Positions 5,955 to 22,250 of a DNA stretch of 34,685 nt are shown piece by piece. The position numbers were made by a program, and so were the translations under genes. The notes beneath the pieces are model-generated. The model saw only the letters and a program-made list of their open reading frames with translations, did not search any database and was not told where the DNA came from. Source of the stretch: Prevotella sp. (GTDB taxonomy: Bacteria; Bacteroidota; Bacteroidia; Bacteroidales; Bacteroidaceae). The first letter of the stretch is position 1; every line of letters begins with the position of its first letter. The stretch is from assembly GCA_017458125.1 (NCBI GenBank), contig JAFTGB010000001.1, forward strand, positions 1 to 34,685. Direction: 5' to 3'.

Positions 5955-5982
5955 TTTGTTCCGATTATATTTCTTACCTTTG
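5955..5982 (+). promoter_or_regulatory. Promoter of the cobalamin-riboswitch operon
   Basis: TACCTTTG at 5975-5982 is a good -7 element, followed by CA. A TTTG at 5955-5958 could be the -33 box with a somewhat short spacer of 16 bp. The predicted transcript start near 5987 lies just before the riboswitch. Confidence 0.6.
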
Positions 5983-5991
5983 CACGCTGAA

Positions 5992-6180
5992 TCGTGGTTC
6001 GACTACCGATTAAAATGGGAACGCAAAAGGTGCACGTGATGTGCGCCGGGTGAAAATCCCCGACTGTCCCGCAGCTGTAAGTTGTCCTTACGACGGTACA
6101 AGCATAAACGTCACTGATATTTTCGGGAAGACGCTTGTGCCGGGCAACGAAGTCAGAAGACCTGCCACGAGGAAAGAGTA
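5992..6180 (+). promoter_or_regulatory. Cobalamin (vitamin B12) riboswitch
   Basis: The element contains, in order, the conserved pieces of the AdoCbl-type riboswitch: GGGAACGC, the GGGTGAAAATCCCCGACTG segment, TGTCCCGCAGCTGTAAG, a B12-box-like CGTCACTG, GGGAAGACG, and the closing AAGTCAGAAGACCTGCC. Downstream, AGAGT (6174-6178) can pair with ACTCT (about 6191-6195), which may belong to the expression platform. There is no U-run terminator before the start codon at 6246, so control of translation is more likely than attenuation. The riboswitch implies that the two genes after it are made when B12 is scarce. Confidence 0.92.
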
Positions 6181-6245
6181 AGTTCCGCGCCACTCTGGGG
6201 TTAGGGCGAGGGATGATATGTATTATTATAATAAGGTATAGAAGC

Positions 6246-7295
6246 ATGATGAAAAGCTGTGTAAAGGCTTTGTCGTGTGCTGTCGCTGGTTATGGCCTTG
6301 CGTGTCTTAATGCCTTCGGGCAGCAGACGCAGCCTGTGGGTACGGCAGCGCAGTCGAAATTCATCCAGGCCGTCGACGAATATGTGCCGGCGCCCGGGCA
6401 GTTTGTGAACACACTACCGGAGGCTACCGCCGCCGACACGCCAGCGACGATGGCGCAGAAGTGTACCGAGGCCATTGCCAACGGCAACGGCGGCATGATA
6501 ACCCTCGGTGCGTGGGGTGGCTACGTCACTTTCCACTTCGACCATCCGGTGGTCAACGTCGAGGGGCAGCGCGACTTCGCCGTTTGGGGCAACGCCTTCA
6601 CCAACAATGCCGAACCCGCCGTCGTCATGGTGTCGGTAGATGCCAACGGCAACGGGCGTCCCGACGACACTTGGTACGAGCTGCGCGGCTCGGAGTACGC
6701 CAACAGCAAGACGGTGCACGGCTACCGCCTCACCTACACCTACAGCGCGATGCAGGACGTGGCGTGGACCGACAACAAGGGCGGTTCCGGCGTGGTGGCG
6801 CGCAACCGCTATCATGCGCAAGAGTATTTCCCGCTGTGGCTGGCTTCGGAGGGCACGCTGACCTTCGAGGGCTGCCGACTTCCCGACAATGCTTACTACG
6901 ACGAGGCGACACGGCAGTTCCTGTTGCCCGCCTACGCCTACGGCTATGCCGACAACCAGCCTAACACCGACGTGGAAGGCTGCTCGATGGACATCGGCTG
7001 GGCCGTGGACGACGCCGGACAGCCTGTGACGCTGGACCATGTCGACTTCATCCGCTGCTACAACGCCATGAACCAGGTGTGTGGCAACATTGGCGAGACC
7101 TCGACGGAGATTACGGGTGCCGAGGACCTGCACCCTGACGCTTCGACGGGCATCAGCGGCATCGGGCTGTCGCCGTCGGCGGTGACGCGCTGCTACTCCA
7201 TTGACGGCCGGCAGTCCGCGACGCTGCGCCCCGGCCTGAACATCGTCCGCATGGAAGACGGAACGATAAAGAAAGTCTTCAGAAAAAACAATTAA
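6246..7295 (+). CDS. Exported cell-surface protein under B12 riboswitch control
   Basis: The 349-residue protein starts at ATG 6246 (6249 also possible); in-frame codons upstream lie in the riboswitch. It has a signal peptide (about 1-26, ending LNAFG|QQ). The central region contains GMITLGAWGGYVTFHFDH, V-x-V-x-W-G-N-A-F, VSVDANGNGRPDDTWYELRG and W-T-D-N-x-G-G-S-G. I recall this pattern from 'cell surface protein' genes placed in Bacteroidetes B12-uptake loci; the biochemical role is not established to my knowledge. The last 35 residues (YSIDGRQ..GLNIVRMEDGTIKKV) resemble the C-terminal tail of many Prevotella secreted proteins and of the next gene, suggesting a shared export or anchoring signal. 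The next gene follows after 19 bp. Confidence 0.8.
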   Translation: MMKSCVKALSCAVAGYGLACLNAFGQQTQPVGTAAQSKFIQAVDEYVPAPGQFVNTLPEATAADTPATMAQKCTEAIANGNGGMITLGAWGGYVTFHFDHPVVNVEGQRDFAVWGNAFTNNAEPAVVMVSVDANGNGRPDDTWYELRGSEYANSKTVHGYRLTYTYSAMQDVAWTDNKGGSGVVARNRYHAQEYFPLWLASEGTLTFEGCRLPDNAYYDEATRQFLLPAYAYGYADNQPNTDVEGCSMDIGWAVDDAGQPVTLDHVDFIRCYNAMNQVCGNIGETSTEITGAEDLHPDASTGISGIGLSPSAVTRCYSIDGRQSATLRPGLNIVRMEDGTIKKVFRKNN

Positions 7296-7314
7296 CCTAT
7301 TATAGATAGATGTT

Positions 7315-10300
7315 ATGAAACAAAACGCATTCAAACAGCACCTGTGGCTGTTGCTACTGCTCATGCTCATGCCCTTGGGGGCCTGGGCCGACCGGGAAGT
7401 CAACCAGCCGCAGTTTGGCAAACAGGAGATTACAGTTGCTACCGACGAGGTCATCACCTTCTACGACCCCTGGGGTACGGCGGACATTGTGGACAACAAT
7501 TCCTACAACGCCCAGTCGCTGACCGTCTTCAAGCCCGCCGTGGCAGGCCAGTCGGTGCAGGTCACGTTCGAGACGTTAGACCTGGAACAGTTCAACAACA
7601 GCTACTACCTCTACCTGAACGTGTACGACGGTGTGGCTGACGCCGACGACAGCTTCACATGGGCCGCATCCACCAACGATGTGACGTCGACGGCCAGCCT
7701 TTCGGCACTCAGCGGCACCCTGCTGGCCGAAAAAATCAACAACGACAGCAAGCTCGCACTCCCCGCCGTCTATACGTCGTCGACTGCCGACGGAGCCCTT
7801 TCGGTGGGCTTCATGCACCGCAACTCCAACCAGTGTGCGGGGTGGGTGGCTAAGGTGAAGTGTGTCACCCTGGCAGATATGACCATCACCGGGGCTGGCA
7901 GCAGCTACGACGCCGTGGCAGCGTCGCCCTCGACCAGGCAGAACGTGGCATTGGCTCAGGCCTACGTGACCGCCGAGGGCGTGATGAACCCCGACAACGT
8001 GACGGGCATAGGTTTCAAGCTGACCCAGAACGAGGGCATGGTGGACCCCACGGCCCTGAAGCTCTACAAAGGCGACGTACTGCTGTCGGCCACCGTGTCG
8101 GCTGACGGCGACGACTATCTGTTTACACTCAACGAGGCTCCTGCCGACGGCACCACCACGTTCACCGTCAGGGGCGACATCTTAGGCACAGCCGCTGTGG
8201 GTGCCAAGGTGCAGGTGGACATCACCAAGGTGACCACCGCGGGACAGCCCGCCGGCATCGCGCCCTTTACGGCAGCCGCCAGTGTGACGGTGCAGAACCC
8301 CGCCATCGTGCTGATGACGGCCACACCGCAGACCGTCACCGTCGGCGAGACACCGCTGCAGTTCTATGACGAGGGCGGCAAGAATGGCGGCATCCTGTCG
8401 AAGACCAACGGTCAGGTGACGTTCCTCTCGGGCGATGCCGACAAGAAGGTGATGGTTGACTTCACCAAGAACGAAATCTGGCACGGCACGCTAAACAACC
8501 AAGAGTTGCGCATCTACAACGGCACGGAAGTAAACGAGGCCAACCGCATCAAGACCCTGCAGCAAGGCGAGACGGGCATTGTTCGTTCCACTGCCGAAGA
8601 CGGTTCGCTGACCGTAGTGCTCTTCAGCGATGCCGGTAACGATGTGGCAGCCAATGGCTTCGAGGCCACCGTCAGCCTCTTCACCCCACAGGCTATGGAC
8701 TTCAACGGTGCGCCAGCCGTAGCGGTGGTTGAAGCGACACAGACTGTGGCCGGTGGCGACACTGACCAGGAGTTGCTTACCGTCAACGTCAAGGCGCAGA
8801 ATACGGAGCCTGCCATGCAGGTGACGAAGATGACCTTCTCTACTGGCGAGAAATACCAGCTCGTCACTAAGGCAAGCCTCTACTTCGGCACAACGAAGGT
8901 TGGCGAGGCCACTCCTGCTGCTTCAGAGTTCGCCATCACGCTTGATCATCCTCAGCCATTGACAGAGGGTGACAACATCTTTACCCTGAAGTACGACATC
9001 AGCGACGAGGCTGTCAACGATGAGGAAATCATTGCTGCTGCTGTCAGCGTCACCGCACTGGTCAACGACAGCGAAAAGACTCAGGCTGTTGAAGAGAATG
9101 CCCCCGAGGCTACGCCAACGGTGAAGAACCTCGTACTCAGCCACGCCGACCAGGGTTCGGTCACCAAGACGGTGAACGGTTCCATGGCTTTCGAGACGAA
9201 AACCACCAGCGAATACTCTACCCGCTACGAATATGGTACCGATACCCGTACCAACATCTTCATCCCGAAGCACGAGGGCATGATCTGCCAGATTGACTTC
9301 TCTGCCTTCGATGTCTATTATTCCAGCAGCAGCTATGGCTCAAAGGCCAAGTTTGCCATCTATGCCGGACAGGGGACTACTGGCGAACTGCTTTGGGAGC
9401 TCAACGACGCTTCACTGCAGAAGACAGGTCCCGGCAAGACCATCCGCTCTACCGCTGCTGACGGAGCCCTGACCATTGTCTTCTCTCCCAACACCTCCTC
9501 ATCTTATTATACTGGTGACGGCTGGAAGGCTACCGTCAGCGAATACCAGTCGAAGCCCATGACGGTCAATGCCGTTGAGGTGGCTCAGGCCAGCACGGCC
9601 GATGCCTCTATCGGTGCTACCGGTCAGGACCTGCTCACCGTCAACGTGAAGACCGAGGGCGACCAGAACGCCTTACTGTTGTCGGCCATGACGCTCAACC
9701 TGAAGGGTACTGAGGCCAACATCAGCAAGGTCAGCGTATGGCAGGGCGACACCCAGTTGGGCGAGGCCGCTGCTGCTGCAGAAGTCACCATCAGCATCAG
9801 CGAACCCGTCACATTAGCTGAGGGCGATAACCTCTTCACCGTGAAGGCCGACGTCAAGAGCAACGCTACAGAGAACAGCACCATCGACGCGAAGGTAGTT
9901 TCCATTACGGCAGGGACAGCCATTGAGGCTACTGCCGGCGACCCCGACGGCCAGCGCACGCTGAAGAATCAGGTGCTGATGACCACAGGCAGCCACGGCA
10001 CGCTGAACTTAGAACTGGGCCAGACCATCAGAATCTTCGACGACGGTGGTCCTGAAGGTGACGGAGCCGACGGCGTGGAAGCTACCATCACCATTGCTCC
10101 TACCGGCGATGCTGAGAGCATCAAGCTGATATGTCAGGACATCAAACTTTCTTATACTGCCTACCTTTATATCTATGAGGGGACGGAAGTCAGCGACGAG
10201 AAACTCATCATTGACAACAGGGGAGCCTCCAAGCCCTTCGCCCCGATCATCGTTGACGGTCCCGTCACCATCAAGTATGTCGGCAAGGGCAGCTATACGA

Positions 10301-13300
10301 AGCCCAACTTCGCCATCCAGGCAGAGGGCTACAAGAAGAGCGACGTGACCATTACCAGCGTCACCACCGAGGACATCAGCGTCAACGAGGTGCTCAAGGG
10401 ACAGACCGACGTGAAGATGCTGAAAATCAAGGTGGAGGCTAAGGGTGAACTGACACCTGCCGAGATAACGGCCTTCAACATCACAGGTACCGACGGCGAG
10501 GCCGTTGACAACTACCACATCTATCAGACAGGTACTGCTACCACGTTCTCTCCCGTGAATGTGTTTAACGGTTCATACAGCATTACCGAAAGCGGTACTT
10601 ACTACTTCTGGCTCACCTACGATGTAAAGGCAGAAGCAAAAGTCGGTCAGACGGCTTCAGTTGCCGTTACGGGCGTAGTGGTAAACGGAAATACCATCAA
10701 CGTCACCGAGCCTGCCACCGCCACCTTCACCGTGGCCAGCGGCAAGAGCGGCACCTACACCATCGGCCAGGGCGGCTACTACGCCACCATCCAGGGAGCC
10801 ATTGACGACATCGGTGATCTCGGTATGGACGGCCCTGTCACGCTGAAAATCAAGGCTGGCGAGTACAACGAGAAGGTGCGCATACCCAACATCAAGGGAT
10901 TGGGCGCTACGAACACGCTGACCCTTGAGAGTGAGAGCGGACAGCGCGATGTCAAGATATTCCACAACAACTACACCACCGGAGGCTACAGCGACGACCA
11001 GCACAAGAAGGACTACGGCGTGGTGACGCTCTACGAAGCCAGCTACGTGACGCTGCGCTCGCTCGACATCAGCACCACCGACAAGGCCTACAAGGCTGTC
11101 GTCATGGTCAAGGACCAGAGCCGCCACGTCACCATTGACGACTGCTACCTGCACGCTCCCGTGTGCACGGCTACCGGCGAGGACGTCTGCTTAGTAGGCC
11201 ACACCATCATCGACGAGGAGAACAAGAACAACGACTACCTCACCGTCCGCAACTGTCTGTTGGAGGGTGGCAAGATGGGTGTCTCCATGGGTGGCACCAG
11301 CTTTGTGGCCCTGCCCAAGGAAGTGGGTGGCGTCATCGAGGGCAACACCTTCCGCAACAACGGCCAGAAGGCCATCTACGTCATGGACGAGTTAGGCGTG
11401 AAGATACGCAATAACACCATCACCGTCGAGTCCAGTGTGGTCACCAAGACGTCGGTGGGCATCCTCGACATGCAGTTGCGCGACGAATACGCCGTGGCCA
11501 CTGAGATTACGGGCAACGTCTTCAATGTGGCTCCTACGGCTTACTGCGCCGTCATGAACCTGCGCCAGATGGAAGGCTCGGCGTCGGCTCCCGTAGTCGT
11601 GGCCAACAACGTCATCAACCTGACGTCGTTCAGTGCCAGCTACAGTGCACTGAAGTTCAACAGCAACAAGGTGAAGAACGTGCGGGTGGCCAACAACACC
11701 ATCCGCATGACGGGCACCAGCGGCGGCGCGGCCTTCTGGCTCTCGTCGACGCTGGCCGACGGCTACGGCAACATTGACGTGGTGAACAACATCATTCAGA
11801 ACGAAACCGACGGCTATGCCGTCAACCTCTATAACGACGGCAACCTCGGAACGGACAAGGTCAACTTCCGCAACAACCTGATGTGGACCGAGGGCACCGC
11901 CTTCTTCCGTGCCGCAGCGGCTACCACGGGCGGCTTCGACACCTTCGTCCAGAAGACAGGCGCCACCGACTGCGTCAACAAGAAGGTGGCCTTTGTCAGC
12001 GACGACATTCTGGAGCCGGAGAACACGCTGGACGGCGACCTGCTGAAGGCTGTCAGCCTGAGCTACGTGACGACCGACGTCAACGGTACGCCGCGCCCGC
12101 AGGAGAACAGCTCCATAGGTGCCTACGAGTACGACGCTGACCGCACGCGCGTTCCCGTCGTCGCCGACGGCTATCCCAAGGCTGTGGCCACGGCCTACGA
12201 CGAGGCCATGGTGACCGTCAAGGCCGACATGAACGGCAAGGCTTACATCATGGTGCTGCCTGCCGCTGAGACGGCTCCCACTGCCGAAACGCTGAAGGCC
12301 GACGGCAGCGTGCTTACGCTGACCAAGGACGCCGAGGCGGCATGGACGGCCACGGGACTGTCCGAGGACACGGAGTATGTGGTCTATGTGCTGGTGGAGA
12401 GCACGCGCGGCAACAGCACCGAGGTGCTGACAGCCCCCGCCTTCACCACGCCGCGAGAGCCCGTGGAACTGCTCGTTGAGTGCACCGAGGCCGTCACCAC
12501 CGTCGCCGAGGGCGACCCCGCCGACCTGAAGGTCACCGTGAGCAGTGGTGTGGCTCCCTTCACCGTCAGCTGGATGGACAGCGGCCACCGTCAGGTGGGC
12601 AAGACCGTCACCACCGACCTGATGAACGAGGACATCGTCCTTACTGTGACACCGGAGGCGTCGGGCGACTACTACGTCATCGTCACCGACGCCCAGGATT
12701 TCGAGGCTCGCGACACCTGCCGCGTCATCGTGACGGGAGAGGCTATGGTGGCCGACTTCGAGAACCTCTACATCGATGCCAACTCCTACTGGCGCGGACC
12801 TGACACCAAGGGCAACATTGAGGAGGGCGTCTACGGCGACCAGCAGTACCAAGGCTCGTTCGTCAGCGGCTCCTACGCCTTCTCCAACAACTACAGCATC
12901 GACTGGAACTCATGGTCGGGCTTTGCCTACTCGAACCGCACCTCCACGGCAGGCTCCAACATCATGGCTGACCAGTGGAACTCGTGTGTAGGACGAGGCG
13001 TAAACCGCTCAAGAAACTACGGCGTCTTCTTCGAGGACGCTCATGCGCCCATGACCGTTACCGTGCTCAACCGTGAGGACGGCGACGACATCAAGGGCTT
13101 CTACATCACCAATGCGGCCGTAACCGTTAATGCCATACTTAACGGCGACGGCATGACGGGTGAGAAGGATGCCGACGGCAATAGCGTAGGCGGCGACGTC
13201 GGCTTCAGGAAAGGCGACTACCTGCGACTCATCATCACCGGCGACAACGGCAACAGCGTGCGCTACTATCTGGCCGACTACCGCAGCGTACGCAAGGCCG

Positions 13301-13866
13301 ACCGCTACTACGTGGACAAATGGGAGTGGGTAGACCTGACCAGCCTCGGCACCGTCTCGGAACTCACCTTCCATCTGGAGGCGTCGCGCAAAAACGCGTG
13401 GGGATACACCACGCCGCTCTACTTCTGCATGGACGACCTGAACGGCGAACGTCCTGAGACGCAGGCCGACGAGACGCTTGTCGTCACCGACGGCGAGTTG
13501 ACGCAGAGCCTCGACGACCTGCTGGCGTCGGTCACCTCGGGCAAGGCCACCGTCAGCTACGAGCTGGCTGACGTGCCTGAAGACATCAGTGCCGAGGTGA
13601 GCATCGACGACGACGACAACCTCGTCATCAGCGGCAACGAGTCGGAGACGTTCAACATCGTCATCAAGGTGACGCAGGCCGGACATACCGAGTATGTCGT
13701 CGTGCCCGTCGAGATTGTCGTCACCGACGGCATCGGCACCCTGACCAACGGAAAGCTGACAGGCGAACGCTACGACCTGAACGGCCGTAGGGTGGAGGCT
13801 CCGCACAAGGGTGTCACCATCGTCCGCATGACTGACGGAACAGTCCGCAAAGTAGTCGTGAAGTAA
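7315..13866 (+). CDS. Giant exported mosaic protein (CUB-like repeats, beta-helix, FN3/Ig-like, DUF4465-like)
   Basis: The 2183-residue protein has a signal peptide (1-25, ending GAWA). From about 30 to 1140 a roughly 270-residue unit occurs four times: a CUB-like sandwich opening with a 'F-Y/D-D-x-G-G' turn (about 30-185, 332-457, 603-748, 884-1010), then a second sandwich ('QELLTVNVKA..LTEGDNIFTLKYDI'). At about 1147-1600 there is a right-handed beta-helix (GGYYATIQGAIDDI, many N-N-x-I rungs), then an FN3-like (1615-1715) and an Ig-like domain (1718-1808). A DUF4465-like domain covers 1812-2045 (VADFENLYIDANSYWRG..YFCMDDLNG). The tail ends YDLNGRRVEAPHKGVTIVRM plus a basic end. It is co-transcribed with the riboswitch-linked gene. 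B12 capture or surface adhesion is inference. No catalytic residues are evident. Confidence 0.85.
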   Translation: MKQNAFKQHLWLLLLLMLMPLGAWADREVNQPQFGKQEITVATDEVITFYDPWGTADIVDNNSYNAQSLTVFKPAVAGQSVQVTFETLDLEQFNNSYYLYLNVYDGVADADDSFTWAASTNDVTSTASLSALSGTLLAEKINNDSKLALPAVYTSSTADGALSVGFMHRNSNQCAGWVAKVKCVTLADMTITGAGSSYDAVAASPSTRQNVALAQAYVTAEGVMNPDNVTGIGFKLTQNEGMVDPTALKLYKGDVLLSATVSADGDDYLFTLNEAPADGTTTFTVRGDILGTAAVGAKVQVDITKVTTAGQPAGIAPFTAAASVTVQNPAIVLMTATPQTVTVGETPLQFYDEGGKNGGILSKTNGQVTFLSGDADKKVMVDFTKNEIWHGTLNNQELRIYNGTEVNEANRIKTLQQGETGIVRSTAEDGSLTVVLFSDAGNDVAANGFEATVSLFTPQAMDFNGAPAVAVVEATQTVAGGDTDQELLTVNVKAQNTEPAMQVTKMTFSTGEKYQLVTKASLYFGTTKVGEATPAASEFAITLDHPQPLTEGDNIFTLKYDISDEAVNDEEIIAAAVSVTALVNDSEKTQAVEENAPEATPTVKNLVLSHADQGSVTKTVNGSMAFETKTTSEYSTRYEYGTDTRTNIFIPKHEGMICQIDFSAFDVYYSSSSYGSKAKFAIYAGQGTTGELLWELNDASLQKTGPGKTIRSTAADGALTIVFSPNTSSSYYTGDGWKATVSEYQSKPMTVNAVEVAQASTADASIGATGQDLLTVNVKTEGDQNALLLSAMTLNLKGTEANISKVSVWQGDTQLGEAAAAAEVTISISEPVTLAEGDNLFTVKADVKSNATENSTIDAKVVSITAGTAIEATAGDPDGQRTLKNQVLMTTGSHGTLNLELGQTIRIFDDGGPEGDGADGVEATITIAPTGDAESIKLICQDIKLSYTAYLYIYEGTEVSDEKLIIDNRGASKPFAPIIVDGPVTIKYVGKGSYTKPNFAIQAEGYKKSDVTITSVTTEDISVNEVLKGQTDVKMLKIKVEAKGELTPAEITAFNITGTDGEAVDNYHIYQTGTATTFSPVNVFNGSYSITESGTYYFWLTYDVKAEAKVGQTASVAVTGVVVNGNTINVTEPATATFTVASGKSGTYTIGQGGYYATIQGAIDDIGDLGMDGPVTLKIKAGEYNEKVRIPNIKGLGATNTLTLESESGQRDVKIFHNNYTTGGYSDDQHKKDYGVVTLYEASYVTLRSLDISTTDKAYKAVVMVKDQSRHVTIDDCYLHAPVCTATGEDVCLVGHTIIDEENKNNDYLTVRNCLLEGGKMGVSMGGTSFVALPKEVGGVIEGNTFRNNGQKAIYVMDELGVKIRNNTITVESSVVTKTSVGILDMQLRDEYAVATEITGNVFNVAPTAYCAVMNLRQMEGSASAPVVVANNVINLTSFSASYSALKFNSNKVKNVRVANNTIRMTGTSGGAAFWLSSTLADGYGNIDVVNNIIQNETDGYAVNLYNDGNLGTDKVNFRNNLMWTEGTAFFRAAAATTGGFDTFVQKTGATDCVNKKVAFVSDDILEPENTLDGDLLKAVSLSYVTTDVNGTPRPQENSSIGAYEYDADRTRVPVVADGYPKAVATAYDEAMVTVKADMNGKAYIMVLPAAETAPTAETLKADGSVLTLTKDAEAAWTATGLSEDTEYVVYVLVESTRGNSTEVLTAPAFTTPREPVELLVECTEAVTTVAEGDPADLKVTVSSGVAPFTVSWMDSGHRQVGKTVTTDLMNEDIVLTVTPEASGDYYVIVTDAQDFEARDTCRVIVTGEAMVADFENLYIDANSYWRGPDTKGNIEEGVYGDQQYQGSFVSGSYAFSNNYSIDWNSWSGFAYSNRTSTAGSNIMADQWNSCVGRGVNRSRNYGVFFEDAHAPMTVTVLNREDGDDIKGFYITNAAVTVNAILNGDGMTGEKDADGNSVGGDVGFRKGDYLRLIITGDNGNSVRYYLADYRSVRKADRYYVDKWEWVDLTSLGTVSELTFHLEASRKNAWGYTTPLYFCMDDLNGERPETQADETLVVTDGELTQSLDDLLASVTSGKATVSYELADVPEDISAEVSIDDDDNLVISGNESETFNIVIKVTQAGHTEYVVVPVEIVVTDGIGTLTNGKLTGERYDLNGRRVEAPHKGVTIVRMTDGTVRKVVVK

Positions 13867-13885
13867 CCGTCACCGCTTCTCACCC

Positions 13886-13936
13886 AAGGGGGATTTGTAA
13901 TGCGCTCAGGCATTACAAATCCCCTTGTTTTTCTTT
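13886..13936 (+). terminator. Strong intrinsic terminator after the riboswitch operon
   Basis: A perfect 15-bp stem (13889-13903 with 13910-13924, GGGGATTTGTAATGC and its complement) with a 6-nt loop is followed by TTGTTTTTCTTT. It lies 20 bp after the stop of the giant protein and marks the end of the operon. Confidence 0.9.
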
Positions 13937-13967: not shown

Positions 13968-14033
13968 TTTCCGCGCCGTGCGGAAAACGTTTCCGCGCCG
14001 TACGGAAAATGTTTCCGCGCCGTACGGAAAATT
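13968..14033. repeat. Three tandem 22-bp palindromic repeats
   Basis: Units at 13968-13989, 13990-14011 and 14012-14033 share TTTCCGCGCCGTACGGAAAA (the first has GTG for GTA). Each unit folds on itself through TTTTCCG and CGGAAAA. The array lies between the terminator and the promoter of the Rpn-family gene. An open frame crosses it but shows no coding character. Confidence 0.9.
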
Positions 14034-14172: not shown

Positions 14173-14201
14173 CAGTGAGTTCACAAATAGGAGTAGCAAT
14201 T

Positions 14202-15071
14202 ATGGGAGTGGAGATACGCGAGCGATACATAGCCCCGTACACCTATTTCGGTTTCAAGAAGCTATTCGGCACGGAGCTGAACAAAGACCTGCTGATTAGT
14301 TTCCTGAACGCGCTGTTCAACGACAGTACGATGGAAATCAAGGACGTGAAGTACCTGAACGGTGAGCACCTTGGCGACGACTATGGTGACCGTCGTGCCG
14401 TCTTCGACGTGTATTGCACGACAGAGGACGGCGGACGCTTTATCGTGGAGATGCAGAAGGCCGAGCAGGCCTACTTCAAGGACCGCAGCATCTACTATGC
14501 GACGTATCCCATCCGCGAGCAGGCTCCCAAGGGCGCATGGGACTACCGTCTGGAAAATGTCTATACCGTGGGTCTGCTGAACTTTACGTTCCCTGAGGAC
14601 GAGTATCCCGCCGACAGCTTTGTGCACGAGATAAAGTTGAAGGACGTGGAGGATAACCATGTATTCTACGACAAGCTGACATTCTTCTATTTGGAGATGC
14701 CCAAGTTTAACAAGCGCGAGGACGAGCTGGTGACGATGTTCGACAAATGGATGTTTGCGCTTCGCAACCTGTCTCGTCTGATGGATCGCCCTCAGGCATT
14801 GCAGGAGCGCGTGTTCAAGCGCCTGTTTGACCAGGCAGAGATAGCCAGCTTCACCCCCAAGGAGCGCCGTGAGTATCAGGAGAGCGTGAAAGACTACTGG
14901 GACTATTACAGCACAATGACCACCGCCCACCAGAAAGGCCGTGAAGAAGGCCGTGCTGAAGAGCGTCTTGCCAATGCCCGCAGCTTGCTGGACAATGGAG
15001 TCCCGGTGGACGTCATTGTCAAGAGCCTCTGCCTGACACCCGATGAAGTTGAGCTGCTGTCAAAAAACTGA
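14202..15071 (+). CDS. Rpn family recombination-promoting nuclease / PD-(D/E)XK nuclease-family transposase
   Basis: The 289-residue protein opens with Y-x-x-P-x-T-Y-F-G-F-K-K-L-F-G, typical of the PD-(D/E)XK nuclease-family 'transposase' group found in many copies in Bacteroidetes. The catalytic core is visible: Asp69 (A-V-F-D-V-Y-C) and the E-x-Q motif IVEMQ (Glu83, Gln85). The C-terminal part (about 239-289) is a charged helical tail (HQKGREEGRAEERLANAR) ending in VKSLCLTPDEVELL. Start 14202 was chosen for the promoter position and the AGGAG 9 bp upstream. Related Rpn proteins cut DNA, promote RecA-independent recombination and have been linked to phage defence. It appears complete and monocistronic. 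Confidence 0.88.
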   Translation: MGVEIRERYIAPYTYFGFKKLFGTELNKDLLISFLNALFNDSTMEIKDVKYLNGEHLGDDYGDRRAVFDVYCTTEDGGRFIVEMQKAEQAYFKDRSIYYATYPIREQAPKGAWDYRLENVYTVGLLNFTFPEDEYPADSFVHEIKLKDVEDNHVFYDKLTFFYLEMPKFNKREDELVTMFDKWMFALRNLSRLMDRPQALQERVFKRLFDQAEIASFTPKERREYQESVKDYWDYYSTMTTAHQKGREEGRAEERLANARSLLDNGVPVDVIVKSLCLTPDEVELLSKN

Positions 15072-16356: not shown

Positions 16357-18228
16357 ATGAAGAAGTTTAAGTTTAGTTCACTGTGTGGACAGGAAATGAA
16401 GCCGAAAGCTGTGCTCGTCAGGGCAATGGTGATGCTGGGACTCATGCCGTTGCTGACAGCATGCAGCGGTGAGGCGGCAGAGCGTGAAGTGGAGTTCCTG
16501 CCCTTCCAAGAGAGTAAAGGCGGCAAATGGGGACTGATAGGCACCGACGGTACAGTGCTTTTCTCGGAGGAGTTTACAGACGAGCCCACGCCGGCTGTCA
16601 ACGGGCGGTTCATGGTGCAGAACAGCAATGGTATGTGGGAAATCTACACGACGGACAAAAAGCCGCAGAAGATTGGAGGCGAATACGTTCAGGCAGGCCT
16701 GTTCTATAGCGACGTGGCACCGGTCGTGGAACCCGGACAGCCAGTCAAATTGATAGACCGTGATGGAAATGTAAAGGCTACACTGGACAAGATAGACGGC
16801 AAGGCCGTCAGCAGATGTTCCAACTTTGTCAACGGACAGGCGATAGTAGAGGCAGACGGCTGCTGGGGAGCTATCGATACCTCTGGTGATGTGGTTATCG
16901 AGCCTCAATACTCGAAACTGTCAGAAAACAGCCAAGGTTACTACATTGCTTTGGATAAAAAATATGAAGGTGAGACCGATAGTGAAAAACTGGTCTACAC
17001 CATCCTCGACATGAAAGGCAAGGAGGTGACAACTGTCAAAGGTTCAAAAATAAAGGATTTCAGGCCAGTCAACACGTCTAACCACACCATGGGGTGTATA
17101 GTGCAGGATGCCATGATAGTTGAGGTGAATGAAGGTGGCAAGCGTGCTCACGGCCTGATGACCTTTGATGGTGAGTGGAAAATGAAACCGACGACCAAAC
17201 TCAGCAGAATGATACAGAACCGCGGTCAGTATTTCGTCTATCACAGCGGTGAGGCATTCGGACTGATAGACATGAGCGGCGAGGAGAAGATACGTGCAAA
17301 ATACGTCATGATGGGTTTCCTTGACAGTGACATTCTGGCGGTCAGGAGGTCGGGCGACAAAGGTCTTGTGCTGCTTGGCTTGGACGATGAACAAGTCGGC
17401 AAGGAAGAGTATATGGACATTAAGCCGTTCTATGACGGGAAACACGCCTTTGCGCAGGCAGGACAGCACGACTATGTGCTACTCGACAAGAAAGGAGAAG
17501 AGCATAAACCCGAGGTTGACATCTACCATTTGGGCAAAGGTCCGCTGTTGCCTGACTTCATGGAAAGTGACTGTGTGGATGTGGACGACCTCATTGGCAT
17601 GCTGCAATTAAAGAAGGAAGGCTTTTTAGGGTTTACCTCGGCAATGAACGGAGCAGACGCCATTGACCAGGGTAACAAGATGTTTGCCAATATACCGAAA
17701 AGTGCCCAGAAGTATCATGGCTCTCCGTTCATAGAGGGTAACATCATACTGGGTAAGGTGTTGACAGAGCTCACCATAAGTACCGCAGGACTGACGGAAC
17801 AGCGCAGGGTTGGTGACCGCTATCTCTCCTACACCAGCGTGCAGTGGACATTAAATCCTGTGCTTAGCTACGGACTGAACTTTGACGTGGATAAGAACTC
17901 AAAGCTGAAAGGCAAGATGCAAGTGCTTTATAATAAGCTGTTGGACGAGCTGAAGAAAATGGGAAAAGTATTGATGCAGGGTAAGAATGCGGCTGTCATT
18001 GACACCGGTGCGCCTTACAGCTATTACATTGGATGGGCAGGCAAGCAGGTCTTCCTTTTCTATGGTAACTATAACCTCAGCACCTGTATGGTGGACAGCT
18101 ATGACAATGCGTCGGAGAACGAACTGGAGTTCATTCAGATGCCTGAGCTGATGGGAATAGCCGGACAGGATGATGCCAGCGATGAGGACTATGGTGAATT
18201 GGAGTCGCCCCCTGCAGATGATTTATAA
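16357..18228 (+). CDS. WG-repeat lipoprotein
   Basis: The 623-residue protein has a lipoprotein signal with lipobox L-L-T-A-C (Cys near 36) after a hydrophobic stretch. Residues about 45-390 contain repeats of the WG type, for example K-W-G-L-I-G-T-D-G, C-W-G-A-I-D-T-S-G-D-V-V-I-E-P-Q-Y and F-G-L-I-D-M-S-G, spaced roughly 50-60 residues and likely forming beta-hairpin units. The C-terminal third (about 400-600) is different, with no recognised domain, and the protein ends in an acidic tail. WG-repeat proteins are found in envelopes of many bacteria; their ligand is generally unknown. It is co-transcribed with its neighbours. Confidence 0.82.
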   Translation: MKKFKFSSLCGQEMKPKAVLVRAMVMLGLMPLLTACSGEAAEREVEFLPFQESKGGKWGLIGTDGTVLFSEEFTDEPTPAVNGRFMVQNSNGMWEIYTTDKKPQKIGGEYVQAGLFYSDVAPVVEPGQPVKLIDRDGNVKATLDKIDGKAVSRCSNFVNGQAIVEADGCWGAIDTSGDVVIEPQYSKLSENSQGYYIALDKKYEGETDSEKLVYTILDMKGKEVTTVKGSKIKDFRPVNTSNHTMGCIVQDAMIVEVNEGGKRAHGLMTFDGEWKMKPTTKLSRMIQNRGQYFVYHSGEAFGLIDMSGEEKIRAKYVMMGFLDSDILAVRRSGDKGLVLLGLDDEQVGKEEYMDIKPFYDGKHAFAQAGQHDYVLLDKKGEEHKPEVDIYHLGKGPLLPDFMESDCVDVDDLIGMLQLKKEGFLGFTSAMNGADAIDQGNKMFANIPKSAQKYHGSPFIEGNIILGKVLTELTISTAGLTEQRRVGDRYLSYTSVQWTLNPVLSYGLNFDVDKNSKLKGKMQVLYNKLLDELKKMGKVLMQGKNAAVIDTGAPYSYYIGWAGKQVFLFYGNYNLSTCMVDSYDNASENELEFIQMPELMGIAGQDDASDEDYGELESPPADDL

Positions 18229-18258: not shown

Positions 18259-19527
18259 ATGGTAATGAAAATGAAAACATGTTTCAACTATAGACAAGTG
18301 ATGGCAGCTTTGGCAGGTTTGTTCGCCACAGTGACAGCGTCTGCCTATGACTTTCAGGAGGGAGGTGTTTATTATAACATCGTTTATGACAATGTGACAG
18401 TGACCCATGGTGACGTGAAATATACGGGAAACGTCATGATTCCTGCAACAGTTTACCATGATGGCAAGACGTACGGTGTAAACAGAATCGACAATTCCGC
18501 TTTTCTGGATTGCAACGAACTGACATCGATGACAATCAATGCGGTAATAGAAAAGATAGGAGACCGCGCCTTTGCCGGTTGCAAGCAGTTGGCAACTGTC
18601 AACCTGCCCGTAGGACTGAAGGAAATATGGACTTATGCTTTCTCCTCGTGTGAAAGCTTGAAGCGTATAGCAATACCCGGCAGCGTACAGAAAATTGAGA
18701 GCTATGTCTTCCAGGATTGTATGGCATTGGAGTCGGTGACGTTTGGAGATGCCGACACTGACGGCGATATGCGGATAGGTGATTATATCTTCGGTGGTAC
18801 TAAGGGCTGTCCGTCCTTGCAGTCAGTGGTATATGGTAAGGCAGTAAGTGCTATTGGCCTTAACAACTTCTTCCAGATAGGTTCGTTAGAGTCCATTGTG
18901 TCATATAGTAACGAACCGCCTGCGGTTGATGAGCGGACGTTCAAGGACTACCTGCGTTTTGCTTATAATGACTCTATCTATGAACATACGACGCTGTATG
19001 TGCCCGCTAAGGCGATGGTTGCTTATCAGACGCATCCAGTGTGGAAGAAGTTCTTCCATATCAAGGCTTTGGATGATATATCGATAAGCATCAGCTATGC
19101 GGATAACGGCTTGGTGAAGCTGAAGGCAGAAAAAGGCCGCAGCTACGAGCTTGTCATTGAACCTGCTGAAGGCTGGAACATCCACTCGGTAACTTATGAC
19201 GGTGAGGATGTGACGTCGCTGTTGTCAGCAGACTATGTGTTCAAAACACCAGCAGTTACGAAGAGCAGTCTCCTGAATGTGGCTTTTGAGCAGACAAGTG
19301 CAGGTGTTTCTTCGCTGAAAGACGGAAATCGTGTCAAGGTGACAGTAATGGACGGCCAACTGCAGGTTGACGGTGTGGAAAGTGGTGAATTGATAGAAGT
19401 CTATACCGTTGACGGAAAGCACAGTGCCTCATTCATTGCAGCAGGAAATACAGCTCGGTACTCGCTGAAGTCAAATCAGTTCTATGTCGTTAGGGTTGCC
19501 GGGAAGGTAGTGAAGATAGCTTTATAG
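18259..19527 (+). CDS. BspA-type leucine-rich-repeat exported protein
   Basis: The 422-residue protein has a signal peptide ending T-A-S-A near residue 30. ATGs at 18265 and 18271 are alternative starts. LRR_5/BspA-type repeats occupy about 75-230: NRIDNSAFLDCNELTSMTI, K-I-G-D-R-A-F-A-G-C-K-Q-L, EIWTYAFSSCESLKRIAIPG, K-I-E-S-Y-V-F-Q-D-C-M-A-L. A segment near 260-275 carries Y-V-P-A-K-A-M-V-A-Y-Q, typical of the end of such repeats. The C-terminus (VYTVDGKHSASFIAAGN..YVVRVAGKVVKIAL) resembles type IX secretion/anchoring C-terminal domains. BspA relatives bind fibronectin or host cells in oral Bacteroidetes; binding here is inference. Confidence 0.83.
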   Translation: MVMKMKTCFNYRQVMAALAGLFATVTASAYDFQEGGVYYNIVYDNVTVTHGDVKYTGNVMIPATVYHDGKTYGVNRIDNSAFLDCNELTSMTINAVIEKIGDRAFAGCKQLATVNLPVGLKEIWTYAFSSCESLKRIAIPGSVQKIESYVFQDCMALESVTFGDADTDGDMRIGDYIFGGTKGCPSLQSVVYGKAVSAIGLNNFFQIGSLESIVSYSNEPPAVDERTFKDYLRFAYNDSIYEHTTLYVPAKAMVAYQTHPVWKKFFHIKALDDISISISYADNGLVKLKAEKGRSYELVIEPAEGWNIHSVTYDGEDVTSLLSADYVFKTPAVTKSSLLNVAFEQTSAGVSSLKDGNRVKVTVMDGQLQVDGVESGELIEVYTVDGKHSASFIAAGNTARYSLKSNQFYVVRVAGKVVKIAL

Positions 19528-19540
19528 ACGTTAGCATAAA

Positions 19541-19566
19541 AACAGGAGGATCCTGTTGTCTCTTTG
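19541..19566 (+). terminator. Possible terminator of the exported-protein operon
   Basis: AACAGGA (19541-19547) pairs with TCCTGTT (19551-19557) around a 3-nt loop, followed by the weakly T-rich GTCTCTTTG. It lies just after the LRR gene and overlaps the next promoter region, so the assignment is moderate. Confidence 0.45.
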
Positions 19567-19586
19567 CCGAATATTGATTACCTTTG
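19556..19586 (+). promoter_or_regulatory. Promoter of the YhiN-like flavoprotein gene
   Basis: TACCTTTG at 19579-19586 with a TTG at 19556-19558 about 20 bp upstream. The expected transcript start (about 4-5 nt after the -7 box) coincides with the ATG at 19591. Confidence 0.6.
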
Positions 19587-19590
19587 CAGC

Positions 19591-20769
19591 ATGCAAACAG
19601 CAATAATAGGTGGTGGGGCGGCAGGGTTTTTCTTAGCTGTCAATTTGAAAGAGATGAGGCCGGAGATGGGTGTCACCGTCTTCGAGCGTAGCCATAGGGT
19701 GCTGGCCAAAGTGAAGGTGTCGGGCGGCGGGCGCTGCAATTGTACGAATACGTTTCAGGATGTGCGCGACCTGTCGGCGGTTTACCCGCGTGGCCACCGG
19801 CTGATGAAGCGGCTATTCAACGTCTTTGACTACGGCGACGCCTACCGGTGGTTTGAAAGCCACGGCGTGAAGCTGACGGTGCAGGACGACGGCTGTGTGT
19901 TTCCGGCGGCGCAGGACTCGCAGGTGGTCGTCGACTGCCTGACGCAGACGGCACGGCGTCTGGGCGTCAGCGTCGTGACGGGACGGAAGGTGGAGGGGCT
20001 GGACGCGTTGAGGGACTACGACTTCGTAGCCGTGACTACGGGCGGTTCGCCGACGGGTCAGGGTCTGCGCTGGCTGCAGGCGCTGGGCCACGAGGTGGAA
20101 CGCCCCGTGCCGTCGCTCTTCTCGCTGGCTGTCAGCGACAGCCGTCTGCACCACCTGATGGGACTGGTGACCGACTTCTCCGTGGGCATTGCGGGCACAA
20201 AGGTGCGCGGCGAGGGACCGCTGCTTATCACCCACTGGGGACTGAGCGGCCCAGCGGTGCTCAAACTGTCGAGCCACGGCGCACGGCTGTTGGCTGACAG
20301 GAATTACCGTGTGCCGCTGACGGTCAGCTGGCTGCGCATGCGGGAGGACGACGTACTGGTGGCGTTGCACGCCATGGCGGCGCGTCATGCGCAGAAGCTG
20401 CTGCCGACGGCGAACCCCTTCGGGCTGCCCCAGCGCCTGTGGAGCTACCTCTTAGACAGGGCACTCGGGGAGCGTGCACAGCTGCGGTGGGGCGAGACAG
20501 GAAAAAAGGACACCAACCGGATGGTCAATGTCCTTTGTAGCGACAGTTATGAGACAGCGGGGCGCGCACCTTTCAAGGACGAGTTCGTCACCTGTGGCGG
20601 TGTGTCGCTGAAGGCTGTCAGCAGCCAGACGTTAGAGAGCCGTCACGTGCCTCGCTTGTATTTTGCCGGCGAGGTGCTTGACGTGGACGGCATCACGGGC
20701 GGCTTCAACTTCCAGGCGGCATGGACTACGGCTTACGTCGTGGCATGCAGCATAGCAGCGGCACAGTAA
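19591..20769 (+). CDS. NAD(P)/FAD-dependent oxidoreductase, HI0933/YhiN (BaiN-like) family
   Basis: The 392-residue protein begins with a dinucleotide-binding motif straight after the start (MQTAIIGGGAAGFFLAVNL). The family signatures K-V-K-V-S-G-G-G-R-C-N-C-T-N and TGGSPTGQG are present, and the C-terminal ITGGFNFQAAWTTAY places the flavin near the end, as in HI0933-type proteins. Length is typical (about 390-410). The physiological substrate of these flavoproteins is mostly unknown; BaiN acts in bile-acid dehydroxylation in other bacteria, which should not be assumed here. ATG 19591 was chosen over an upstream TTG (19564) because the latter is inside the promoter. The downstream gene is convergent. 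Confidence 0.9.
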   Translation: MQTAIIGGGAAGFFLAVNLKEMRPEMGVTVFERSHRVLAKVKVSGGGRCNCTNTFQDVRDLSAVYPRGHRLMKRLFNVFDYGDAYRWFESHGVKLTVQDDGCVFPAAQDSQVVVDCLTQTARRLGVSVVTGRKVEGLDALRDYDFVAVTTGGSPTGQGLRWLQALGHEVERPVPSLFSLAVSDSRLHHLMGLVTDFSVGIAGTKVRGEGPLLITHWGLSGPAVLKLSSHGARLLADRNYRVPLTVSWLRMREDDVLVALHAMAARHAQKLLPTANPFGLPQRLWSYLLDRALGERAQLRWGETGKKDTNRMVNVLCSDSYETAGRAPFKDEFVTCGGVSLKAVSSQTLESRHVPRLYFAGEVLDVDGITGGFNFQAAWTTAYVVACSIAAAQ

Positions 20770-20778
20770 GAGTATTCT

Positions 20779-20806
20779 CTTGCTTCTTGCCTCTTGCCTC
20801 TTGCTT
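20779..20806. repeat. Degenerate heptamer array (CTTGCYT x4) between convergent genes
   Basis: Four units, CTTGCTT, CTTGCCT, CTTGCCT and CTTGCTT, fill most of the 43-bp gap between the flavoprotein stop and the aldo/keto reductase stop. Confidence 0.85.
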
Positions 20807-20812
20807 CTTCTC

Positions 20813-22216
20813 CTAATCTTTAGATCGCGTAAGCGTGTCCTGCTTGAGCGCTTCGACATACTGGCTGATGCTGTTGAGCTCGCGGGGTATGCGGATGCTC
20901 TGCGGACAGTGGGGCTCGCATTGTCCGCACTGTATGCAGTGGTCGGCTTGGCGCATGCGCGGCACGGCACGGTCGAGACCGATGAGGTATTGTCGGCGCA
21001 GTTTGCGGTAGTTGGCGTCGCCACGGTCGGTAGGCAGCATGCCCTCGTTCTTGCACTTGTTGTAGTGGATGAAGATGGCGGGGATGTCGATGCCGTAGGG
21101 GCAGGGCATGCAGTATTTGCAGTCGTTGCACGGGATGTTCTTCAGACCGACGATGCGCTCGGCTACGTCCTTGTCCAGGAAATGCTGCTCGCCCTTGGTC
21201 AGTGGCACCAACGGGCTGTAGCTGAGCAGGTTGTCCTTCAGATGTTCCATGTAAGTCATGCCAGACAGCACGGTGAGCACGCCCTCGGGAGTGCCCGCAT
21301 AGCGGAAAGCCCACGAGGCTACGCTGCGCTCCGGGGCACGCCGCTTCAGGTCGGTGGCCAGAAACTGCGGCAGGTTGGCCAGTCGTCCGCCGAGCAAAGG
21401 CTCCATGATGACGGAGGGAATGCCCCGCTTCTGCAGTTCGGCATACAGGTAGCTGGCGTCGACGTTATTCTTGCTGATTTCGTTGGCAAAGTTCCAGTCC
21501 AGGTAGTTGAGCTCTATCTGGCAGAAGTCCCAGTGGTACTTGTCGTGCATGGCAAGGATTTCGTCGAAGACCGTCTTCAGACCGTGGAACGAGAAGCCCA
21601 GGTTGCGTATGCGCCCGGCCTTACGCTCCGCCATGAGGAAGTCCATGATGCCGTTGTCTACGTAGCGGCGGTTGAACTCGTCGATGCTGCCGCCCACGGA
21701 GTGCAGCAGGTAGTAGTCGATGTAGTCGACCTGCAGCTGCTTCAGCGAGTTGTGGTACATGCCGATGCTGGCTTCGCGCGTTTGCAGCGTAGGGTTGAAG
21801 TTGGACAGCTTAGTGGCCACGAAGTATTCGGAGCGCTTGTGGCGACTGAGGGCGATGCCCGTGCAGGCTTCCGACTTGCCCTGGCAGTAGACGGGGCTGG
21901 TGTCGAAGTAGTTGACGCCGTGGGCTATGGCATAGTCTACCTGTTGGTTGATCATGTCCTGGTCGTAGTCGTCCTGGTTCTCTGTCTTCGACGGTAGGCG
22001 CATCATGCCGTAGCCTAAGAGCGACACCTTGTCGCCATTAAAGGGGTTGGTGCGGAAGGTCATCTTGTCGGTGGGAGGTTCCACCTGCTTGGCGTACTCG
22101 CTGACGGCCTTCGTCTCGGTCTTCGACTTGCAGCCGGTCATGACGGCAGCGGTGCCAAGTGCGCCGCCGCCCAACAGTTTCAGGAACGAACGGCGGGAAA
22201 TATCGTGCTTGCTCAT
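20813..22216 (-). CDS. Tat-exported aldo/keto reductase with two [4Fe-4S] motifs
   Basis: The 467-residue protein begins with a twin-arginine signal matching S-R-R-S-F-L-K (Arg8-Arg9) and a lipobox-like V-M-T-G-C (Cys29), so it is probably a Tat-exported lipoprotein. The aldo/keto reductase domain (about 52-345) keeps the tetrad Asp105 (N-Y-F-D-T-S), Tyr110, Lys136 and His172 (Y-L-L-H). Two ferredoxin-like motifs follow: Cys363/366/369/372 (CNDCKYCMPCPYG) and Cys427/430/433/437 (CIQCGQCEPHCP). Substrate is unknown. It is the last gene of the operon tatA-tatC-Fe/S protein-reductase. The Fe/S protein upstream could supply its electrons, which is inference from context. Confidence 0.9.
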   Translation of the reverse strand: MSKHDISRRSFLKLLGGGALGTAAVMTGCKSKTETKAVSEYAKQVEPPTDKMTFRTNPFNGDKVSLLGYGMMRLPSKTENQDDYDQDMINQQVDYAIAHGVNYFDTSPVYCQGKSEACTGIALSRHKRSEYFVATKLSNFNPTLQTREASIGMYHNSLKQLQVDYIDYYLLHSVGGSIDEFNRRYVDNGIMDFLMAERKAGRIRNLGFSFHGLKTVFDEILAMHDKYHWDFCQIELNYLDWNFANEISKNNVDASYLYAELQKRGIPSVIMEPLLGGRLANLPQFLATDLKRRAPERSVASWAFRYAGTPEGVLTVLSGMTYMEHLKDNLLSYSPLVPLTKGEQHFLDKDVAERIVGLKNIPCNDCKYCMPCPYGIDIPAIFIHYNKCKNEGMLPTDRGDANYRKLRRQYLIGLDRAVPRMRQADHCIQCGQCEPHCPQSIRIPRELNSISQYVEALKQDTLTRSKD

Positions 22217-22250
22217 AATGCTTAATTCTTTAATGTATAATGCATGATGC
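22216..22250 (-). repeat. Degenerate heptamer array (GCATTAT-like x5) filling an intergenic gap
   Basis: On the minus strand the units are GCATCAT, GCATTAT, ACATTAA, AGAATTA and AGCATTA. They run from the stop codon of the Fe/S protein to the first base of the reductase start codon. Confidence 0.7.

Follow-up and report, generated by a model that had tools for sequence, protein, structure and literature searches.

A cobalamin riboswitch operon of Prevotella sp. that pairs BtuH with a giant DUF4465 protein: a probable accessory system for B12 capture

We analyzed a 34,685-base stretch of Prevotella sp. DNA (assembly GCA_017458125.1, contig JAFTGB010000001.1, positions 1 to 34,685; here, the window) in which a cobalamin riboswitch is followed by two genes on the same strand, one for a BtuH-domain protein and one for a mosaic protein of 2183 residues with a DUF4465 domain, which we call the giant. 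This is probably an accessory B12-capture operon: its two products would be repressed through the riboswitch, displayed at the cell surface, and used to pass cobamides to a BtuB-BtuG transporter encoded elsewhere in the genome. The proposed accessory capture role is well supported because both gene families are published B12 binders. What is new here is a giant protein family with a riboswitch-linked core. In the open-access literature searched, we found no description of giant DUF4465 proteins, of a riboswitch-linked giant family, or of this operon type.

The operon and the separate transporter operon

The riboswitch, described as clear in an earlier reading made from the sequence only, matched the full length of the RF00174 model (positions 1 to 189) with 68.4 bits against a gathering threshold of 31.5 (E, 4.9e-15; Table 1). 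A chance match was ruled out by this score and by the linkage of all 48 mapped giants to a riboswitch (see below). The giant gene begins after a gap of 19 nucleotides from the BtuH stop codon, and the terminator that closes the operon is as strong as had been claimed (−28.6 kcal/mol; shuffle mean, −10.5; z, −7.05), with 0 of 200 shuffles as good. The element upstream overlaps the first bases of the aptamer; we call it promoter-like because it fits the Bacteroidetes-type consensus, TTTG-N-TAnnTTTG, and the pattern occurred 8 times in the window against 0.45 expected. A sigma-70 promoter scan of the 78 bases upstream of the riboswitch found none. No terminator-type hairpin or expression platform was found between the aptamer and the start codon, and the fold of positions 6115 to 6260 was not better than that of shuffled sequence (z, 1.64).

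Table 1. Features of the operon in window coordinates
Feature	Coordinates	Strand	Basis
Promoter-like element, TTTG-N16-TACCTTTG	5955-5982	+	Pattern search
Cobalamin riboswitch aptamer, RF00174	5978-6183	+	cmscan
BtuH-domain protein, 349 aa	6246-7295	+	ATG at 6246, stop at 7295; hydrophobic N-terminus, signal peptide by eye
BtuH domain, aa 30-296	6333-7133	+	phmmer against solved structures
BtuH protein tail, 48 aa, like short Prevotella type IX secretion C-terminal signals	7149-7292	+	C-terminal matches in the genome
Giant secreted mosaic protein, 2183 aa	7315-13866	+	Open reading frame, Pfam scan, 47 relatives mapped
CUB-like and BNR_assoc_N series, aa 27-1128	7393-10698	+	PF14873, 60.3 bits; CUB below cut-off
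Right-handed beta-helix region, aa 1129-1602	10699-12120	+	PF13229, E 9.9e-09, 35.4 bits
DUF4465 (BtuJ-type) domain, aa 1863-2042	12901-13440	+	PF14717
Giant C-terminal tail, 45 aa, short type IX secretion signal type	13729-13863	+	Sequence
Intrinsic terminator, end of operon	13887-13926	+	17 pairs, then GTTTTTCTTT

The absence of BtuB from the operon, also part of the sequence-only reading, held for the entire window: tblastn with the genome's own proteins as queries (E, 1e-6) returned no relative of BtuB, BtuG, BtuF, or BtuC. With btuB and btuG in no part of the window, the operon is not a complete btu uptake locus. The genome itself (G000; 3.37 Mb, 86 contigs, 88.5% complete) contains two RF00174 matches, and the second heads an operon on another contig (C40, locus L013) in the order riboswitch-btuB-btuG-btuJ-btuF-btuC. 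There, a 684-residue protein matched 8blw_A, the BtuB1 of Bacteroides thetaiotaomicron (E, 1.5e-124), a 395-residue BtuG matched 8blw_B (E, 3.5e-27), and a 261-residue DUF4465 protein scored 138.3 bits; a periplasmic binding protein and a FecCD permease are BtuF and BtuC by position and family. Because this riboswitch operon carries the transporter genes, we regard the window operon as accessory to a transporter encoded elsewhere.

Putative B12-binding domains and predicted export of the two proteins

The first gene had been assigned to a type found in B12 loci, and structure matches bore this out. A Pfam and NCBIfam scan of the 349-residue protein gave no match; phmmer against solved structures matched it to 8blw_B (E, 1.6e-58) and to 7biz_A, which is BtuH2 (E, 4.6e-41). 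We identify 8blw_B as BtuG1 with its H-domain because it is the partner chain of BtuB1 in entry 8blw (PMC10404256). The protein thus carries, at full length, the same domain as BtuH1, BtuH2, and the H-domain of BtuG1 (BtuGH) of B. thetaiotaomicron. Members of the BtuH family bind B12, and BtuH2 is described as a lipoprotein with PKD domains (PMC8941943), whereas in the window BtuH no further domain is seen and the C terminus is a short tail of the type IX secretion system (T9SS) kind. Only one BtuH copy was found in the genome. Residues are numbered after BtuH2, with the offset set so that the eight residues named in the paper all match their published identities (PMC8941943). Gln333, Asn399, Phe401, and His476 are present in the window BtuH; among 33 aligned proteins, drawn from 43 BtuH open reading frames (ORFs) in the fetched loci, they are found in 33, 33, 19, and 31, respectively.

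The second gene is, as claimed, a 2183-residue mosaic with a DUF4465 domain, which scored 155.1 bits in a Pfam scan (cut-off, 25; E, 3.1e-45) and 162 bits in another scan. The proposed tie of DUF4465 to B12 binding in Bacteroidetes stood, and the label BtuH-like did not: DUF4465 is the BtuJ family (PMC12751083, PMC13398666), and it is the first gene that encodes BtuH. Eight divergent DUF4465 members bind B12 (PMC13398666), and binding by BtuJ1 and BtuJ2 is tight (PMC12751083). Relatives of known structure are 9hmu, 4e9k, 4jqr, and 9i2l. Like BtuJ1 and BtuJ2, the giant has the hallmark Thr-Pro-x-Tyr motif of the HI loop, here TTPLY, and the Tyr and Thr of this loop were present in 18 of 18 aligned DUF4465-bearing giants, including the window's. 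The setting of the domain is different, since BtuJ1 and BtuJ2 are small lipoproteins (the 9i2l chain has 305 residues) and the giant's DUF4465 lies near the C terminus of a very long protein.

The giant's CUB match (E, 0.023) and an fn3 match (Pfam) are below cut-off, and no CUB match was found in three of four window segments scanned singly; in relatives CUB reaches an E value of 2.4e-4. In profile searches against solved structures, part of the BNR_assoc_N region showed a weak likeness to sialidases (best E, 7e-4), and the start of the beta-helix gave weak matches to a cell-wall-binding-repeat protein (5.5e-5) and to pectinesterases.

Both proteins are likely exported by the T9SS, judging from their signal peptides, their short tails, and a PorU sortase gene in the genome (NF033707, over cut-off). 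The signal peptides were called and the tail lengths counted by eye; at 48 and 45 residues the tails fall within the 43 to 55 residues reported for the short C-terminal signals of T9SS cargo in Prevotella intermedia (PMC11969387). The BtuH tail matched the C termini of the giant and of six further long ORFs in this genome (E, 1.6e-7 to 0.04). C-terminal export signals have already been reported on 38% of 824 DUF4465 proteins (PMC12751083). SprA (TIGR04189) was set aside as a T9SS marker, as it was blank in the genome and in all controls, and a regular expression for the C-terminal tails was too unspecific, hitting 41 of 48 giants together with 192 of 799 control ORFs (real and spurious). The PorU gene appears twice on contig C44, at 6054-9173 (−) and 19407-22526 (+); the two copies are inverted relative to each other and score identically, which suggests a palindrome created in assembly.

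Of the 43 BtuH-containing ORFs, 38 extend at least 40 residues past the domain and 5 extend fewer; the 38 include 3 BtuH-DUF4465 fusions and 2 proteins (L075, 5932-7041; L113, 7043-8143) that end in YDLDGDG...TIDDI, not in the usual tail. We take this end motif to be dockerin-like or EF-hand-like.

Riboswitch linkage of giants in related genomes

We collected relatives of the giant from two samples, with genomes taken one per species but often close kin, and with gene starts from our own ORF script. In the family sample (399 genomes, own included), BtuH was matched at an E value of 1e-5 in 166 genomes and DUF4465 in 150; 40 stretches were fetched, and 12 of them contain a relative that matches the window giant along most of the protein. 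In the genus sample (398 genomes), the beta-helix was matched at an E value of 1e-30 in 40 genomes, own included, and the 35 new ones were all fetched. The mapped set consists of the window and 47 relatives, with riboswitch sites for the 47 taken from a genome-wide search.

All 48 mapped giants are preceded on their own strand by an RF00174 match, at a distance of 77 to 8591 bases from the giant start. The interval between riboswitch and giant contains no recognized btu-type gene in 23 loci, BtuH only in 7 (window included), and other btu genes in 18; in 15 of these 18 it holds btuB or part of it (using the extension L183 for L084). A BtuH match falls in this interval in 22 of 48 loci, one of them a fragment (L083). 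By tblastn, 44 of the 48 giants have a DUF4465 or BtuJ match (exceptions, L176, L177, L181, and L182), a count in which the 12 family-sample giants were chosen from listed DUF4465 matches in long ORFs, so that giants lacking the domain would escape there. Some giants, such as L075 and L149, have two or three DUF4465 copies.

The separated arrangement of the window is therefore not unique, and the earlier description of a stand-alone accessory capture module, otherwise supported by the sequence, has to be amended in this respect. Nor are all units that lack btuB in the interval remote from a transporter: among the 30 with BtuH only or no btu-type gene there, btuB and btuG lie nearby in L152, L153, L155, and L158, and btuF and btuC lie nearby in L150, L157, and L162. 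No other btu match was present in the fetched stretch for the window, L076, L173, L160 (whose contig begins just ahead of its riboswitch), and 17 of the 23 units in which the giant follows the riboswitch directly. At the other extreme are complete operons, with the order riboswitch-B-G-H-giant-J-F-C in L075 and riboswitch-B-G-H-giant-F-C in L082. Homologues of both window genes, sought in other B12 loci as the sequence-only reading had proposed, were thus found in btuB operons and behind cobalamin riboswitches of relatives. In L083 (2929-4150), part of btuB directly followed by part of btuH precedes an open giant frame, as what is left of a btu operon. A single protein combines BtuH with DUF4465 in L094 (9962-11824), L095 (8905-10644), and L096 (9832-11637), and these fusions are likely two-site B12 binders. 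Separately, L089 encodes between btuG and btuF a 1408-residue protein with three DUF4465 matches (7830-12056).

In a tree of the beta-helix, the window grouped with L084, L149, and L151, all of which have other btu genes before the giant, with an SH-aLRT value of 80, which is not strong. On this quick tree of 48 rows, the presence or absence of other btu genes before the giant changed 9 times, fewer than the shuffle mean of 14.6, which shows that the label is clustered; 5 changes are required even if only well-supported branches are counted. The separated state therefore arose or was lost several times.

To see how specific the riboswitch link is, we searched the order with a beta-helix profile, which matched 46 of 344 genomes, own included. 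All 45 other matched genomes contain at least one riboswitch. We counted a place as linked if it lies within 10 kb downstream of a same-strand riboswitch; among the 70 places listed besides the window, 8 of 9 above 290 bits were linked, and 7 of 61 below, the latter figure counting the 54 unlinked places regardless of contig ends. At the ninth high-scoring place (G1094) the contig ends about 2.1 kb beyond the match. The low-score figure rules out a riboswitch linkage general to such beta-helix proteins, and from the two proportions we conclude that the link belongs to a subset of them. The 15 linked places represent 11 families besides that of the window. Two loci from one genus in another family (L201 and L202) show the window's order of riboswitch, BtuH, and giant with no BtuB match in 19 kb. 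The smallest riboswitch-linked forms (L203 to L206; 1060 to 1083 residues) consist of beta-helix and DUF4465.

Proposed function, alternatives, and surroundings

From the riboswitch class, the operon would be expressed when cellular cobamide is scarce and repressed when it is plentiful. Both products would leave the cell through Sec followed by type IX secretion and be fixed at the surface, where BtuH and the giant's DUF4465 may bind external cobamides as their tested relatives do. The cobamides would then be handed to BtuG and BtuB of the riboswitch operon present on the other contig. The core of the giant is most likely a long stalk or tether, possibly glycan binding, that would hold the B12-binding domain off the membrane.

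Several observations weigh against this proposal. The residues Tyr510, Trp511, Trp577, and Leu578 of BtuH2 are replaced by Gln, Phe, Asn, and Ile in the window BtuH. These positions are variable across the family (Trp577 is found in 19 and Tyr510 in 7 of the 33 aligned proteins), and from the BtuH2 residue map and these counts, nucleotide-loop contacts appear to be retained and corrin-ring contacts partly lost, in the window BtuH and in other members alike. In the giant's DUF4465, unlike in BtuJ1 and BtuJ2, two conserved contact positions are changed: those of BtuJ1 Tyr146 (DE loop) and Asn241, set via the BtuJ2 alignment as BtuJ1 was not among the structure matches, are Val and Thr. They are two of the four conserved hydrogen-bonding residues reported for BtuJ1 and BtuJ2 (PMC12751083), and they are not a condition of membership in the DUF4465 family. 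Across 18 aligned DUF4465-bearing giants, Trp (7), Tyr (6), Val (4), and Asn (1) all occur at the Tyr146 position, and Thr (13) is commoner than Asn (5) at the Asn241 position, so that the window giant does not stand out in its family. The two tails of the window gave no Por_Secre_tail match at an E value of 0.01; among relatives, such a match was found in 5 of 20 giants scanned and in 2 of 33 aligned BtuH proteins. Further, surface proteins of B12 loci do not all bind B12, as reported for BtuK2 and BtuL of B. thetaiotaomicron (PMC12751083). Finally, five riboswitch-linked giants have no DUF4465 by tblastn and Pfam: the four exceptions among the 48 mapped, which form one clade, and L199 from the order sample.

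These five giants are informative about the rest of the protein. All have BNR_assoc_N over cut-off and a beta-helix that aligns along the family although its score falls short of the curated cut-off; three have CUB and three Por_Secre_tail, all below cut-off. Of 20 giants scanned at an E value of 0.01, all 20 contained BNR_assoc_N and 18 contained DUF4465; Beta_helix was matched in 8, Por_Secre_tail in 5, and CUB in 4. By these profile matches, the constant part of the family is the CUB-like/BNR_assoc_N/beta-helix core. Because the five relatives are riboswitch linked without DUF4465, the core itself is in the B12 regulon, and B12 binding by DUF4465 cannot be all that the family does. We tentatively raise the possibility that the giant is a new class of B12-regulon surface protein, in which the constant core would help to acquire cobamides and DUF4465 would be exchangeable; the core might bind a cobamide, a cobamide carrier, or a surface glycan, and might work without BtuH, BtuJ, or a linked transporter.

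The same five relatives, which have the core and no DUF4465, also fit the idea that the main task of the giant is adhesion or glycan binding under repression by B12, with DUF4465 optional or weak and B12 serving as a niche signal. The constancy of BNR_assoc_N, the weak sialidase likeness of part of that region, and the two altered contact residues point in this direction. We nevertheless consider it unlikely, given the DUF4465 or BtuJ match in 44 of 48 mapped giants, the BtuH gene between riboswitch and giant in 22 of 48, and the multiplied DUF4465 copies of some members. Still less probable is that the operon descends from a full btu operon, has lost the transporter genes, and now drifts as a relict. 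The tree group nearest to the window, with other btu genes before its giants, and the btuB and btuH fragments of L083 would suit such a history, but both frames of the window are fully open, its promoter match, riboswitch, and terminator are retained, and the same unit of riboswitch, BtuH, and giant is found again in L076 and L173, as well as in the L201 and L202 loci of another family, each time with no match to btuB in the stretch that was fetched.

Very improbable, in our judgment, is that the core captures proteins carrying B12, such as host B12-binding glycoproteins, and not free B12. In that case its CUB-like domains would have the part played by those of the human receptor cubilin, and CUB-like and sialidase-associated domains here occur in a protein locked to the B12 regulon. 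The CUB matches are weak, however, both in the relatives and in the window, and CUB-like and sialidase-associated domains are common in bacterial secreted proteins.

Accessory capture by BtuH and the giant, which we favor, has partial parallels in B. thetaiotaomicron. Its B12 loci 1 to 3 likewise contain riboswitch-controlled accessory surface proteins, there beside or near BtuBG; those loci contain the transporter, whereas the window operon is separate from it. Like B. thetaiotaomicron BtuH, the window BtuH is encoded behind a cobalamin riboswitch, and BtuH of its relatives lies beside other B12-locus genes. An operon shared with btuB is predicted for more than 80% of published btuH homologues (PMC8941943), and the window btuH is not in one; as this is not all of them, the published figure already implies that some BtuH proteins are encoded apart from btuB. 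None of the genes listed for B. thetaiotaomicron (btuB, C, D, F, G, H, J, K, L, and X) corresponds to the giant. The B12-capture proteins of Bacteroidetes described so far are, in the published accounts we drew on, for the most part small lipoproteins whose genes accompany those of BtuBG. The operons analyzed here place capture domains on very large proteins that are probably exported by the T9SS and are often encoded in riboswitch units of their own, both in the family of the window and in 11 others of the order. Such units could show at what distance from the transporter B12 capture is possible, whether vitamin uptake makes use of the T9SS, and what role the constant riboswitch-linked core plays.

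The operon is preceded by a sodium:alanine symporter gene (Pfam scan), ahead of the riboswitch. Just past the terminator, at 13968-14032, a 22-bp unit with the palindromic core TTTCCGCGCCGTACGGAAAATG is repeated three times in tandem, followed by a gene for an Rpn-family PD-(D/E)XK nuclease/transposase (14175-15068). Adjoining genes in the window encode a WG-repeat protein (16357-18225) and a BspA-type leucine-rich repeat protein (18259-19524).

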